64,000 nt of DNA, taken from assembly GCA_951812825.1 (NCBI GenBank), contig OX638324.1, forward strand, positions 2,267,141-2,331,140, read 5' to 3'. Made by a program: the position numbers and the translations under genes. This document shows positions 27,148 to 48,796 of this stretch, piece after piece (positions within the stretch are counted from its first letter, which is position 1; each line of letters starts with the position of its first letter). The notes under the pieces were generated by a model that saw only the letters and a program-made list of their open reading frames with translations, did not search any database and was not told the origin of the DNA. This stretch comes from an uncultured Dehalococcoidia bacterium (GTDB lineage: Bacteria; Chloroflexota; Dehalococcoidia; Lucifugimonadales; GCA-2712585).

Positions 27148-28851
27148 TCACCGACGGCCAAACTGCCGCTCCAGATTCTGGGAGCTCAAATGCAGCATGG
27201 TCGGGCGTCCGTGGGGGCAGGTGTGGGGGTTCTCCACCTTCTCAAGCAGTCTGATGATCTCCTGCATCTCCTCCATGCTCAGGCTCTTGCCCGCCCGCAC
27301 CGAACTGTGGCAGGCAATCGACGCCGCCAGGGCCTCCTGATGTCCGCCCAGCGAAGCTCCGTCCCGTAGCGTCATCTCCAGCACTTCCAGTAGCGCTTCC
27401 GCCGGGTCCCCCCGCCGAAAGGTTGCCGGCACCGCCCGCAGCACGTAGGAATCTCCATCGAAGGACTCTAGTTCAAATCCGTAGGCTTTCATCGCCTCGG
27501 CGCCGTCCTTCACCAGCTCCTGGTACTCCGGCGAAAGCTCCACCGGCACGGGCTCCAACAGCGCCTGCACCGACGGGCTGCCTCGCTTCATCTCTGTGAC
27601 TATCTTCTCGTACAGCACACACTCGTGGGCCGCATGCTGGTCCATCAGGAATATGCCGCTCGGCCCTTCCGCCACTATGTAGGTGTTCGACGCCTGCCCC
27701 AATACCCGCAACGCCGGTGACTGCACCTCCGGGACCTGCCCGTCAACCGGACGAGGAGGTGGGGATGTCGTGGGCCGCGACGCCAGCGGCGACGCCATGA
27801 AAGATGGCTGGAAGGCGGGCGCGCTTTCCGTCGGCGATATGTGAAACTGTGGCACGGGCGTCGACGCGATAAGCACCCCCCGCACTGCCCTCTGCACCGA
27901 GGAAAAGACCTGCGACCCCTTGCGGAACCGCACCTCCGCCTTCGTTGGGTGCACGTTCACGTCCACGTCCTCGTAGGGAAGATTGATGTTCACCGCCGCC
28001 ACCGGGTATCGCCTCTGGGGAAGCAGCCCGTGGTAGGACTCCTCCAGCGCCACGCTTAGCATCCGGTTCATCACCCAGCGCCGGTTGACGAATAATGTGA
28101 TGTGGCGCCGGTTCGACCGATGAAGGGACGGAGGCCCCACAAATCCTTCTACCGACACTTCTCCCTCAGCGTCCGTCCACTCCACCGCCAGAGCCTCCTT
28201 GGCCACCTGAGGCCCGTAGACGGCGGCCAGTGCGTCCTCCGAACGCCCGCTGCCTGAGAAGTTAAGCGCCTCCCGCCCGTCTATCGTCAGGCGGAAAGCA
28301 ACCCCCGGGTAGGCGAGAATCAGGCGTGAAATCAGCGTCCGAATTCGTCCCACTTCAGCAGCGTTGGAGCGCAGGAACTTCCGGCGGGCGGGCACGTTTT
28401 CGAAGAGTTCCGCTACGGCAACGGAGGTGCCTGGGGCGCAGCCTACGGGACCCTGGCGCTCCAACCGCCCCCACTTGAAAGCCGCCTCCCAGCCGCTGGG
28501 GAAGGACTCCTTTCGGCTGGTCAGGTTCACGCTGGCAACGGAGGCGATGCTGGGAAGGGCCTCCCCCCGAAACCCCAGGGTGGCGATGCTGTCCAGGCCT
28601 GACACGTCGGCCAGCTTGCTGGTAGCGTGGCGTTGGAAGGCGAGGGGTATCTCCTCTGCTTCCATACCGGAGCCGTTGTCGACGACGCGGATGAGTTCAA
28701 CGCCTCCGCCTCTAACGTCGACACGGACCCGCGTTGCGCCCGCGTCCAGGGAATTCTCGATAAGCTCTTTCGCCACGGACACGGGCCGTTCCACCACCTC
28801 GCCCGCGGCGATCTTGGCGGCAAGCTGCTCTGAGAGAAGCCTTATTGTCAT
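27148..28851 (-). CDS. mutL: DNA mismatch repair protein MutL
   Basis: MutL couples MutS mismatch binding to strand incision. The 567 residues include the GHKL ATPase motifs (KIAAGEVVERP, ELIENSLDAGAT, DNGSGM, GFRGEALPSI) and a C-terminal endonuclease-type metal motif DQHAAHECVLYE plus CPHGRPT. Nicking-type MutL is expected in bacteria without MutH. It is the last gene of a minus-strand run (mutS, an ArsC-like gene, a HAD gene, mutL), 58 bases after the HAD gene. ATG 28851 is the natural start. Confidence 0.96.
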   Translation of the reverse strand: MTIRLLSEQLAAKIAAGEVVERPVSVAKELIENSLDAGATRVRVDVRGGGVELIRVVDNGSGMEAEEIPLAFQRHATSKLADVSGLDSIATLGFRGEALPSIASVASVNLTSRKESFPSGWEAAFKWGRLERQGPVGCAPGTSVAVAELFENVPARRKFLRSNAAEVGRIRTLISRLILAYPGVAFRLTIDGREALNFSGSGRSEDALAAVYGPQVAKEALAVEWTDAEGEVSVEGFVGPPSLHRSNRRHITLFVNRRWVMNRMLSVALEESYHGLLPQRRYPVAAVNINLPYEDVDVNVHPTKAEVRFRKGSQVFSSVQRAVRGVLIASTPVPQFHISPTESAPAFQPSFMASPLASRPTTSPPPRPVDGQVPEVQSPALRVLGQASNTYIVAEGPSGIFLMDQHAAHECVLYEKIVTEMKRGSPSVQALLEPVPVELSPEYQELVKDGAEAMKAYGFELESFDGDSYVLRAVPATFRRGDPAEALLEVLEMTLRDGASLGGHQEALAASIACHSSVRAGKSLSMEEMQEIIRLLEKVENPHTCPHGRPTMLHLSSQNLERQFGRR

Positions 28852-28909: not shown

Positions 28910-29353
28910 CTAGGCGCGCACCAGGGGACGAAGATCGCCCCTGGCGCGGAAGTGGGCGTCGTCGGAATAGCCATTGGTGGCGAAGGAGGTTGCTGCGGCC
29001 AGCACGCGCTTCATTGCGCCGTTGTCGTCGCCCTGCTTGTAGTAGGGCGGAACCCATAGCCCGCCGAAGGCAGACACCACCTGCGGGTCGTCGTCAACGA
29101 CGAAGTCGGGGGCGAAGGCCAGACCCAACTCCTCCAGCCGCTCCACGTAATCGTAGAGGGGCTTCTGGTACAGACCGGATACGTAACACTCCAGCCCGTG
29201 CCGCCGGACAGTCTCCCGCCGTATTCCCATGCCGGACCAGATGTAGACGTTGTGTCCCATCTCCTTCAGGCCGGACATGGTCTCGTGAACGCCAGGACGA
29301 AGGGAGTTGTCCATGCCCAGGATGGTCTGGTCTACGTCAAAGAAGATATTCAC
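28910..29353 (-). CDS. HAD-superfamily phosphatase-like protein
   Basis: The 147-residue protein has the first HAD motif FFDVDQTI (DxDxT), motif II IWSGMG and a later DDDP segment, all within a small core without a clear cap. It would be a phosphohydrolase with unknown substrate. The start is taken as GTG 29353 (VNIFFDVD), 13 bases after the ArsC-like stop; the longer frame from 29431 overlaps that gene and is improbable. It belongs to the mutS-mutL run, though no repair role is implied. Confidence 0.8.
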   Translation of the reverse strand: MNIFFDVDQTILGMDNSLRPGVHETMSGLKEMGHNVYIWSGMGIRRETVRRHGLECYVSGLYQKPLYDYVERLEELGLAFAPDFVVDDDPQVVSAFGGLWVPPYYKQGDDNGAMKRVLAAATSFATNGYSDDAHFRARGDLRPLVRA

Positions 29354-29366
29354 TATGCCAGGTAGG

Positions 29367-29723
29367 CTACGCCGATGACAGGACGCTTTCGATGGCCTTC
29401 TTGCCGCCGCCCACCACCAGCTTGTCGCCAATGCGGAACATGGGACGACGGATGAGTCGAGGTTCCTGGGCCATCAGACGGACCAGGTCTTGAGGCTCAA
29501 GGGTGTCCTTGTCCACGTTCAACTTGCGGAAGCTGGGACTTCGCCACGAGAATACTTCCGAGGGGGGCGCCAGGGTAAGAAGCTCCTCGATTTCAGCCTC
29601 GGATAGCGGGTCCTTGAAGAAGTCCCGTTCATCGAATTCCAGGCCCTGTTGCGAGAGCAACTCTCTCACCTTGCGACAGGAGCTTCAACGGGCCCACCAG
29701 TAGAAGGTAACTTTCTCTGCCAT
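29367..29723 (-). CDS. ArsC/Spx-like selenoprotein (in-frame TGA as Sec)
   Basis: Reading through one TGA gives 118 residues: MAEKVTFYWWAR, Sec13, then SSCRKVRELLS and the ArsC-family C-terminus with LIRRPMFRIGDKLVVGG. Thioredoxin-fold ArsC/Spx proteins carry C-x-x-C (or C-x-x-S) here, and the TGA (29685-29687) falls on the first Cys, giving U-S-S-C. AGGAG lies 6 bases before ATG 29723. Without the read-through the frame begins only after the redox site. A stem-loop that could be a SECIS follows. It is 42 bases after mutS. The natural activity is probably a redox or arsenate-reductase-like reaction. A nonsense mutation is the alternative reading. Confidence 0.85.
29651..29669 (-). promoter_or_regulatory. 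Candidate SECIS stem-loop of the ArsC-like gene
   Basis: In the mRNA, GUGAGAG-AGUUG-CUCUCGC folds into a 7-bp stem (one U-G pair) and a five-base loop with G as its second base. The loop starts 22 bases after the TGA. A lower stem, CCUGU with ACAGG, can close around it. Spacing and the early loop G agree with the published bacterial SECIS rules as I know them. A competing hairpin (GUUGC-UCUC-GCAAC) exists. Confidence 0.55.
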
Positions 29724-29765
29724 GCTTTCTCCTCTTGTGTGGTAAGTCTGTCCAGGAATGTTCGT

Positions 29766-32330
29766 CTATTCCGCTTCCTTGGCCATGGATTGAAGCTCGT
29801 ACAGCTTGTTGATGGCCTCCAGGGGGGTCATGTTGGTAACGTCCAGCTTGAGCAGCTCCTCCACCAGCGGAGGGGTGAGGGAGAAGAGGGGGATCTGCTG
29901 ATTGTTCTGGGACGTAGGGCTGGCGCCGTTGAGGGAATTCGACTGGGGCAGGGCTTCCAGGGCCTCGAGAATCTCCCAGGCCCTGTGGACTACGGTTTGG
30001 GGTAGCCCCGCCAGCTGGGCCACGTGGACGCCGTAGCTTCTGTCGGCGCCGCCGGGGACGATACGGTGCAGGAACACCAGTTGTCCGCCGCTTTCGCTTA
30101 CGGCGACGGTGTGGTTCTGCACCCGGGGGAGGCTTTCGGCAAGCTGGGTTAGCTCGTGGTAGTGGGTGGCGAAGAGGGTGCGGCACCCCATCTTGGGATC
30201 GTTGTGGATGTGCTCTGCGACTGCTCTTGCAATGGACAGGCCGTCGTAGGTGCTGGTGCCGCGTCCTATCTCGTCGAGAATCACCAGCGAGCGCCGGGTG
30301 GCCTGGTTCAGGATTGCCGCTGTCTCCACCATCTCAACCATGAATGTGGATTGGCCGGCGGCAAGGTCGTCCTGCAGGCCCACACGGGTGAAGATGCGGT
30401 CGGCCAGTCCTATGGTGGCGGAGTCGGCGGGTACTAAGCTGCCGATTTGCGCCATAAGGGCGATGAGGGCCGCTTGCCGGATGTAGGTGGACTTGCCGGA
30501 CATGTTGGGGCCGGTGATAAGAAGAAGCTGGGATTCGTCAGCCGAAAGATGCAGGTCGTTGGGCACGAAAGCGCCGGCGGGAAGAATTCTCTCCGCCATG
30601 GGATGCCGTCCGCCCTTCACTTCCAGAACCGGTTCCTCCACCAGGCTTGGTCTGACGTAGCCATAGTTGTCCGCTGCCTCCGCAAACGAGACCAGGACGT
30701 CGGTCAGGGCGATGCCGTGGGCCAGCTCAAGGATCCCTTTGGCTTCCTGGCCCACCTGGGCGCAGATCCGGGAGTAGAGGTCCTGCTCCAGACGCTGGAT
30801 ACGTTCCTGTGCGTCCAGGATTCGGGCCTCGTAGCCCTTTAGCTCCGGAATGATGAACCGCTCGCCGTTGGTGAGAGTCTGCCGACGCTCGTAGGTGCTC
30901 GGCACCTGTTGAAGGTTGGCCTTTCTCACCTCGATGTAGTAGCCGAAGACTCGGTTGTACCCCACTTTCAGGGAGCGGATGCCCGTGGCTTCCTTCTCCC
31001 GGCGTTCGAGTCCGGCTATGAACCGGCGGGCCTCGCGCACGGAGGAGCGCAGTTCGTCCAATTCCTCGGAGAAGCCCTCCTTCACCACTTCGCCGTCACC
31101 GGGGTTGCCGGTGGCGTCTTCTTTCAGGGCGCTTTCCAGCAGGTCTTCCAGGGGGCCGAAGGTGCGGATTTGCTTCCTTAGCCAAGCCGCAGTTTCGTCC
31201 CCTTCCAGCAATGGCGAAATGGCCGCGGACGCGCGCAGGCTTTCCTTCAAGGCCAGCAGGTCTCTGGGTGGCGCCGAGCCCAGCCGGACGCGGCTCATGA
31301 TGCGCTCCAGGTCGGAGATTCGGGATAGGAGGGACCGGAGCTCTTGTCGCCGCAGTAGATTGGAGTGGAAATACGCCGTGCCGTCTAGCCGCCGCTCAAG
31401 GTCGTCCATGTTGAGAAGCGGCTGGCCGATCCAGCGGCGAAGCAGCCTCGCGCCCATGGCCGTTCGGGTGAAGTCCAGGGTAGACAGGAGGGAGTATCCG
31501 CCTTCGCCCCAGCGTCCACCATCGAAGAGTTCCAGGTTTCGACGGCTCTGGGGGTCCAGGGTCATGTACTCCGAGACGGAGTAGGTCTTCAGGGAAGTTA
31601 CCTGGCCCAATATCTGGGGCTGCGTTTCGCCCAGATAGCCTAGGATAGCTCCGGCGCTGCCAACGGCCAGGGGGAGGTTCTCGCAGCCGTAGGCCTCCAG
31701 CGTGAGCGCTCCGAAGTGGGTCAGAAGGGCTTCCCGCGCCTTGGGGGCATGAAACTCATTTGCCGACAGGGGCACGGAGACTTCCACGTTTAGCTCCGTG
31801 AAGTCATCGTTACCCTTGTGGACCAGAAGCTCGGCGGGCGAGAGGCGAGTGATTTCGGCAGGCAGATGACTTAGAGGAAGCTGTGTGGCGGCGAATTCCC
31901 CGGTAGTGATGTCGATGTAGGCTAGGCCGGCCTCTACTCCATCCACCTGCAGGGCTGCTAGATAGTTGTTGGACTGCTGGTCGAGCATGGAAGGCTCGAC
32001 GACGGTGCCGGGGGTGACTACTCGCACCACGTTCCTATCCACTATCCCCCTTGAGGCGGATGGGTCGCTCAACTGCTCGCAGATGGCTACTCGGTGACCG
32101 GCTTCGATGAGCTTGGCGAGGTAGGACTCCACGGAATGGGCTGGAATGCCGGCCATGGGAACCCTGACGCGCTTGCCCATGCTACGGGACGTGAGGACGA
32201 TGTCCAGCGCCTTCGCCGCCAGTTTGGCATCGTCGTCGAAGGTCTCATAGAAGTCGCCAAGGCGAAATAGTAGAATGGCGTTTGGATAACGCTGCTTGAT
32301 GCTGAGATACTGGCGGCGAATGGGAGTCAA
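29766..32330 (-). CDS. mutS: DNA mismatch repair protein MutS
   Basis: MutS recognises mismatches and small loops. The 854-residue protein carries the N-terminal mismatch-binding domain (LLFRLGDFYETF with the Phe-x-Glu-type residues), the core and clamp domains, and the C-terminal ATPase (ITGPNMSGKSTYIRQ, then LVILDEIGRGTSTYDG, and LFATHYHEL). Length and order are normal for MutS1. The start is TTG 32330 after AGGAAG. It is divergent from the membrane protein at 32544 and heads the run mutS, ArsC-like, HAD, mutL. Confidence 0.96.
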   Translation of the reverse strand: MTPIRRQYLSIKQRYPNAILLFRLGDFYETFDDDAKLAAKALDIVLTSRSMGKRVRVPMAGIPAHSVESYLAKLIEAGHRVAICEQLSDPSASRGIVDRNVVRVVTPGTVVEPSMLDQQSNNYLAALQVDGVEAGLAYIDITTGEFAATQLPLSHLPAEITRLSPAELLVHKGNDDFTELNVEVSVPLSANEFHAPKAREALLTHFGALTLEAYGCENLPLAVGSAGAILGYLGETQPQILGQVTSLKTYSVSEYMTLDPQSRRNLELFDGGRWGEGGYSLLSTLDFTRTAMGARLLRRWIGQPLLNMDDLERRLDGTAYFHSNLLRRQELRSLLSRISDLERIMSRVRLGSAPPRDLLALKESLRASAAISPLLEGDETAAWLRKQIRTFGPLEDLLESALKEDATGNPGDGEVVKEGFSEELDELRSSVREARRFIAGLERREKEATGIRSLKVGYNRVFGYYIEVRKANLQQVPSTYERRQTLTNGERFIIPELKGYEARILDAQERIQRLEQDLYSRICAQVGQEAKGILELAHGIALTDVLVSFAEAADNYGYVRPSLVEEPVLEVKGGRHPMAERILPAGAFVPNDLHLSADESQLLLITGPNMSGKSTYIRQAALIALMAQIGSLVPADSATIGLADRIFTRVGLQDDLAAGQSTFMVEMVETAAILNQATRRSLVILDEIGRGTSTYDGLSIARAVAEHIHNDPKMGCRTLFATHYHELTQLAESLPRVQNHTVAVSESGGQLVFLHRIVPGGADRSYGVHVAQLAGLPQTVVHRAWEILEALEALPQSNSLNGASPTSQNNQQIPLFSLTPPLVEELLKLDVTNMTPLEAINKLYELQSMAKEAE

Positions 32331-47427: not shown

Positions 47428-48191
47428 TACCCTTGTTCCCGGTCGGAAGGTATTGGGGTGGCAAGGGACAACAAGGCCTCTTCCGCAGCCTTCCGCTCTG
47501 CGTCCACCTTTCGACCCGCAACGCCGACGCCGGCGACTCGGTCTTCCAAGAGCACCTCGACGGTGAAGGTTCGTTGGTGATCCGGCCCGTATTCGTCCAC
47601 CACGCGGTACTGGGGCAGCGGCTCGTGGCGGGCCTGGATGACTTCCTGGAGGTGAGACTTGGGGTCTAGGGGTGCATGGCCTCTCTGTTCAACCTGCTGG
47701 AACTCCGGTGCAAGCAGCTTCAATATCAGACTTCTGGCTGTATGAGGCCCCTTGTCGAGATACGTCGCGCCAATAAGGGCTTCGACTGCCGCCGCCAAGT
47801 TTGAAGAGCGGTGTCGGCCGCCGTTGGCCTCCTCGCCTCGACCCATGGAAAGTTGGGCGCCAAGTTCAAGGGACTCGCCAATGGAGGCTATGCTGCGCTC
47901 CTGGACGAGGTGTGCGCGGAGTTTGGTGAGTTCACCTTCGGGAAGGGCGGCAAAGCGGCAGAAGAGTTCCGACGCCGTTACGTACCCCAGGACAGCATCG
48001 CCCAGGAACTCCAGGCGCTGGTAGGACGTCCTGGACGCATCCGGGTTTTCGTTTAGGAATGAGGGGTGGGTAAGGGCTTCGACGAGCAAAGCGGGACTGT
48101 CGAATGACAGTCCCAGCCTTTCAGCCGCCCACTCTATTTCGGACAAGTTTGACCCGGTGACTACGCTGCAGGAGTGACGCCCGCCGGCCAT
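47427..48191 (-). CDS. rnc: Ribonuclease III
   Basis: RNase III cleaves double-stranded RNA in rRNA processing. The 254-residue protein has the RNase III signature RLEFLGDAVLGYV, then AAAVEALIGATYLD with the second acidic pair, and a C-terminal double-stranded RNA-binding domain (residues about 165-245, DPKSHLQEVIQ... GRKVDAERKAAEEAL). The first ~15 residues before TTG/Leu16 look non-homologous; the start could be 48191 or about 48146. It overlaps the DsbA-like gene's end and ftsY's start. Confidence 0.94.
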   Translation of the reverse strand: MAGGRHSCSVVTGSNLSEIEWAAERLGLSFDSPALLVEALTHPSFLNENPDASRTSYQRLEFLGDAVLGYVTASELFCRFAALPEGELTKLRAHLVQERSIASIGESLELGAQLSMGRGEEANGGRHRSSNLAAAVEALIGATYLDKGPHTARSLILKLLAPEFQQVEQRGHAPLDPKSHLQEVIQARHEPLPQYRVVDEYGPDHQRTFTVEVLLEDRVAGVGVAGRKVDAERKAAEEALLSLATPIPSDREQG

Positions 48192-48796
48192 GGCGGCTGG
48201 GGGCGTTTGATCTCACCGATGTTGACCCACTGGGACATCATCTTTACGAGGCTGTCGTACATTTCACCCGCCTCATCCTGGGACGGGTAGAACATCTTGA
48301 GAAACACGGAGCCGCCGTTGTCGAAGGCAAAGGTAGGCACGCCGAAAGCACCGAATTTCTCAGTGGCTTCCGTGTGGCTCTCACCTATGGTGGTGATTAT
48401 GGAGGGGTCTTTCATGTCCTCCTGGAGGCGACCTGTGTCTAGTCCCGCATCCATGGCGATGGCCATTAGCACGTCTGGATCGTCCAGATTCTTCCTGTCC
48501 ACGTGTCGGGCCTTGAGCAGGCCATCGTGGAAGGCGTCGTACAGTGCGTCGCCCTGGCGCATGGCGGCGATGCCGGCAATATGGGCCAGCATGCCCCTGA
48601 TCTTCTCCTCAGCAGGGCGTTCCCAAGCCTTCCAGCCGGGGCCTTCCTTGCTGTTTGCCTGGGCCAGGACGAAGGGACGCCAGCGAATGTTTTGCCTCTC
48701 TCCCTTATCTTCCTCGACTCTTCGCAACCAGACCGTTGCGTTGTAAACGAAGGGTCAAGTGTAGTCGTAAAAAACCGTAATCTCTTCCTTTGCCAT
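48161..48796 (-). CDS. DsbA-family selenoprotein (in-frame TGA as Sec)
   Basis: Reading through one TGA gives 211 residues: MAKEEITVFYDYT, Sec14, then PFVYNATVWLRRVEEDKG and a DsbA/FrnE-type helical insert. The cis-proline region GAFGVPTFAFDNG follows near residue 170. Relatives begin VxYDYTCPxCY or similar; the TGA (48755-48757) is exactly on the first Cys, giving U-P-F-V. A strong AAAGGAGGG precedes ATG 48796. A stem-loop fitting a bacterial SECIS follows. No signal peptide is present, so it is cytoplasmic, probably a redox enzyme. Without read-through the frame would start at TTG 48727, after the active site. It leads the rnc-ftsY unit. Confidence 0.88.
48723..48740 (-). promoter_or_regulatory. 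Candidate SECIS stem-loop of the DsbA-like gene
   Basis: In the mRNA, CGCAAC-GGUCUG-GUUGCG makes a perfect 6-bp stem with loop GGUCUG. The loop begins 20 bases after the TGA. The first bases GGUCU match the apical loop of E. coli fdhF, which SelB binds. Confidence 0.75.

Follow-up and report, generated by a model that had tools for sequence, protein, structure and literature searches.

The window, by which we mean the whole 64,000-nucleotide stretch of DNA that was analysed, carries on its minus strand, between positions 27148 and 32330, four genes in the order mutS (29766-32330), a short gene of the Spx/ArsC type (29367-29723), a small gene resembling HAD phosphatases (28910-29353; MNIFFDVDQTILGMDNSLRP...) and mutL (27148-28851). 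The short gene lies directly after mutS, as had been claimed in the preliminary description, with a gap of 42 bases. The small gene that follows directly downstream is called HAD-like because of its DxDxT motif and its resemblance to neighbours in other loci; a longer frame at this place had no match when compared with Pfam.

The short gene opens with a ribosome-binding site, AGGAG (29729-29733), read directly from the sequence and separated by 5 nt from an ATG at 29723. Twelve sense codons lead to an in-frame TGA at codon 13 (29685-29687), after which the frame continues through SSCRKVRELL and EPRLIRRP to a TAG stop (29367-29369). With U placed at the TGA, the 118-residue protein runs from MAEKVTFYWWARUSSC to AIESVLSSA, and its motif is UxxC, with U at the first position. 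When U was entered as Cys, the protein matched Pfam ArsC (PF03960) with 56.5 bits against a gathering cut-off of 24. The coordinates, the layout of the start and the ArsC-type remainder with its conserved RRP had all been described correctly beforehand, and the strand is now known to be minus.

We searched 147 related genomes for the gene and found it in 101 of them, nearly all matches having exactly one stop, a TGA. Among the 103 homologues that are readable at the codon-13 column, 98 have TGA and 5 have a Cys codon. Every relative that could be read here thus has either Sec or Cys in this column, in agreement with the earlier proposal that the TGA replaces the first Cys of a CxxC motif. In named genomes, which were scanned with a tight set of relatives, the TGA form occurs in Dehalococcoidia, in SAR202 and in Thermodesulfobacteriota (Syntrophaceae, Smithella), and the Cys form in one SAR202 branch and in Nitrosopumilus. 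Beyond the five counted above, more Cys forms stand among loci L168-L181. A tree, from which one row (L151) was left out, needs about five changes between Sec and Cys, at least three of them forced by well supported branches; only part of its forks are resolved. One close relative carries another copy of the gene, incomplete and close to the end of a contig (L100, G002:C8:1-683), that lacks the active-site part.

The RNA downstream of the UGA can form the hairpin expected of a bacterial SECIS element. The apical stem-loop (29651-29669), 16-34 nt past the UGA, has 7 bp and a loop, AGUUG, that starts 22 bases after the UGA, and the wider region (29643-29683) includes a possible lower closing stem, with a constrained fold of -16.3 kcal/mol. 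The preliminary description had reported this stem and loop, and also a competing hairpin, which proves to be equally stable at -16.4 kcal/mol, so the window sequence alone would not have decided the matter. The comparison of relatives, which concerned the apical hairpin, is more informative. The consensus pairs positions 16-23 after the UGA with positions 27-34, and over 95 distinct sequences 91% of the hairpin cells are paired, with 103 compensatory cells and 16 further pair types. Shifted registers of the hairpin pair in 24-64%, and a column-wise synonymous shuffle gives 81.1 +/- 0.7%, with a maximum of 83.4% in 500 shuffles. Local folding right after the UGA exceeds the synonymous expectation (mean z -1.36, with 72% below -1), as against a mean z near -0.1 over most of the remaining gene. 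The first loop position is G in about 96% of sequences, and the five Cys forms are mostly unpaired at the hairpin positions. The proposed SECIS element is therefore borne out by covariation in the UGA forms and by its absence from most of the Cys forms. Comparison of the region with Rfam gave no meaningful match. Two UGA-form loci (L101 and L109) have a different hairpin, in GGCCCGUCGGGCU, which is not in the canonical register and is perhaps a shifted SECIS.

These data also bear on the reading that the gene is a decaying pseudogene or its TGA an error of sequencing. The TGA of the window is seen in a single assembly, which is the point in favour of this reading, but 98 homologues share this TGA, their frames are intact before and after it, the SECIS is conserved, and the error would have to be systematic across about 100 assemblies. 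Further stops and decay in related genomes had been named beforehand as an observation that would speak against a selenoprotein. What we found was the opposite: the frames of relatives are of full length and almost always contain a single TGA, at this very codon, and a second stop appears in two matches among about 100. We consider error or decay extremely improbable, in keeping with the original judgement that random decay was unlikely.

The genome, that of a marine-type Chloroflexota bacterium, encodes the full machinery for selenocysteine insertion: a tRNA-Sec with the anticodon TCA (75.7 bits), SelB (349.7 bits), SelA (550 bits) and SelD (375 bits). In eight related genomes neither selA nor selB is present: the UGA form is missing from all eight, the Cys form occurs in two, and the other six have no copy of the gene. 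The co-occurrence of selA/selB with the UGA form gives a Fisher p of 1.4e-4, a value that is not corrected for kinship. Three genomes (G092, G119 and G130) have the UGA form and selA without a detected selB, and their assemblies are fragmented. A genome-wide reassignment of UGA to one of the ordinary amino acids, Trp for example, which an in-frame TGA could by itself suggest, is the least credible explanation of all, since TGA terminates 12 of the 36 genes in the window, so that the code is otherwise standard, relatives exchange the codon only for Cys, and tRNA-Sec and SelB are present.

Coding conservation crosses the UGA, the codon aligns with a Cys of the active site, and a SECIS element that covaries lies downstream; the UGA must therefore be read through. 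On these comparative sequence grounds, the UGA at 29685-29687 is very probably decoded as selenocysteine, which would make this a genuine selenoprotein gene and lends support to the Sec-containing ArsC/Spx-like UxxC protein that had been proposed. Following the established biology of bacterial selenocysteine, SelB would carry Sec-tRNA(Sec) to the UGA upon binding the hairpin loop, with its conserved G at the first position.

An in-frame TGA was also noticed in two other genes of this genome. The gene for SelD (L186, G000:C1:1058509-1059423) carries one and, to judge from its reading frame, this selenophosphate synthase is probably a selenoprotein as well. Within the window, a DsbA-family gene on the minus strand (48161-48796; MAKEEITVFYDYTUPFVY...) matches Pfam DSBA with 71 bits, has one TGA at 48757-48755 and is a selenoprotein candidate. 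In the RNA after this TGA, GCAAC can pair with GUUGC to give a hairpin whose loop is GGUCUG. The preliminary description spoke of another, independent selenoprotein in the window, and this DsbA-family gene is most likely the one that was meant.

The family placement of the UxxC protein was approached by profile and by structure. The AlphaFold2 model, with a pLDDT of 84, is closest to Spx (1z3e and 3gfk; TM 0.84-0.86, 38% identity), followed by ArsC-related proteins and then by E. coli ArsC (1i9d). A sequence-profile search likewise places the Spx structures 3l78 and 1z3e first (83-85 bits), ahead of ArsC. The nearest NCBIfam models are Spx and Spx/MgsR (NF002459 and TIGR01617), and the protein falls below the cut-off of both (70.8 against 123 and 70.1 against 75.05, respectively). 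It also misses those of TIGR00014, the glutaredoxin-coupled arsenate reductase (43.9 bits against 106), and of NF041106, ArsC_rel_Se_1 (30 bits against 85). Across 42 sequences, the invariant positions are 13 (Sec or Cys), Cys16, Arg93 and Pro94.

We think that the protein, which has a thioredoxin fold and belongs to the Spx/ArsC superfamily, is probably a UxxC selenol/thiol oxidoreductase, rather than an Spx-type regulator or an arsenate reductase. This oxidoreductase or redox-switch reading follows from two observations: the arginine triad of ArsC is only partly present, and neither the Arg47-Gly52 segment nor the C-terminal tail of Spx is kept. With these key residues missing, arsenate reduction and full Spx-type binding of RNA polymerase become less likely. 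Judged from fold and motif, the protein would most likely work in the cytosol, as an oxidoreductase or redox switch whose targets are disulfides or peroxides. Sec13 would make the nucleophilic attack and Cys16 would serve as the resolving thiol, the pair would cycle between a selenol/thiol and a selenenylsulfide, and a thioredoxin-type reductant may regenerate the reduced form.

The strongest competitor, though in our estimate an unlikely one, is a Sec-containing transcription regulator of the Spx type, in which oxidation of the U-C pair would alter binding to the RNA polymerase alpha-CTD and so switch stress genes. The nearness to Spx by both profile and fold, ahead of ArsC, speaks for such a regulator, as do the retained CxxC register and RRP motif of Spx and the fact that no other PF03960 protein was found in the genome. 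The scores below the NCBIfam cut-offs speak against it. In Spx, the Arg47-Gly52 segment contacts the RNA polymerase alpha-CTD; here, two residues near Arg47-Met48 are deleted in the profile alignment, the position of Gly52 is variable (P in 22 of the 42 sequences, G in 9), and the C-terminal tail of Spx is absent, the protein ending where that tail would begin.

A Sec-containing arsenate reductase is more doubtful still. The Pfam ArsC match is in its favour, the Sec occupies the place of the catalytic Cys12 of E. coli ArsC, and an earlier catalogue calls a UxxC group 'Arsenate reductase 2'. The score against TIGR00014 is less than half of the cut-off, however, and the catalytic arginines do not fit. 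ArsC uses arginines 60, 94 and 107, of which only the middle one has an invariant equivalent (Arg93); the first position varies (R in 32, K in 5, N in 4 and S in 1 of the 42 sequences), and near the third position no Arg is conserved. No ars gene was recognised by eye in the recurrent neighbour clusters.

The gene order of the window, with the UxxC gene and the HAD-like gene between mutS and mutL, recurs in part of the Dehalococcoidia (loci L119-L138). mutS lies upstream in 12 of the loci compared and mutL downstream in 14, in every case on the strand of the UxxC gene. Small genes resembling that at 28910-29353 follow in six other loci. Co-transcription with mutS and mutL is likely at the loci that have this order. 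A universal linkage to mutS was considered and rejected, since the two genes are adjacent in 12 loci and the neighbours differ in other relatives. At six loci in other Dehalococcoidia (L129, L139, L146, L153, L163 and L170), the gene sits, as recognised by eye, beside genes resembling SDR dehydrogenases or homoserine dehydrogenase, so the neighbourhood has been reshuffled. A more speculative idea, to which we give little credence, is that the protein is a redox switch akin to Spx but based on selenium, whose Sec-Cys pair would be a faster oxidant sensor than Cys-Cys and whose gene would be expressed together with mutS and mutL in Dehalococcoidia of the SAR202 type. If true, such a switch would tie the sensing of oxidative stress to mismatch repair or its regulation.

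Gene callers usually stop, or misplace the start, at a UGA of this kind, and the protein is therefore likely to be missing or truncated in many annotations of Dehalococcoidia and SAR202. Yet the gene is present in about two in three of the related genomes that were searched. With approximately 100 aligned UGA genes, the SECIS is well determined for a group that is largely uncultured, and the natural Cys versions allow a comparison of Sec with Cys.

A literature search for Spx selenoproteins, and for selenoproteins together with SAR202, found no papers. The UxxC Spx/ArsC gene belongs to a kind of bacterial selenoprotein that had been described before. A paper of 2006 mentions selenoproteins resembling ArsC (PMC1794560), and a COG1393 UxxC selenoprotein, MAM02162.1, appears in a 2022 review (PMC9312934). 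In the Global Ocean Sampling survey of 2008 (PMC2398784), the passage on the 'Arsenate reductase 2' family (cd03032) gives 42 sequences with a UxxC motif. By that description, our protein shares with the family an ArsC/Spx-type domain, a UxxC motif with Sec first and a source in bacterial metagenomes; the same passage assigns the family neither a function nor a host lineage, and describes neither its gene order nor any covariation of its SECIS.

NF041106 is likewise named as a Sec-containing family of ArsC proteins, but the low score against it indicates a different subfamily. E. coli ArsC shares the superfamily and the position of the catalytic residue (TM 0.76), and differs in its 20% identity, in the UxxC motif and in the arginine triad, which is incomplete here. 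Spx of Bacillus subtilis is closer, with the same fold, CxxC register and RRP motif; our protein departs from it in having Sec for the first Cys, in the changed and shortened Arg47-Gly52 segment and in the missing tail. What is documented here is the spread of this selenoprotein gene through Dehalococcoidia and SAR202, together with its recurring place in the order mutS, UxxC gene, HAD-like gene and mutL.
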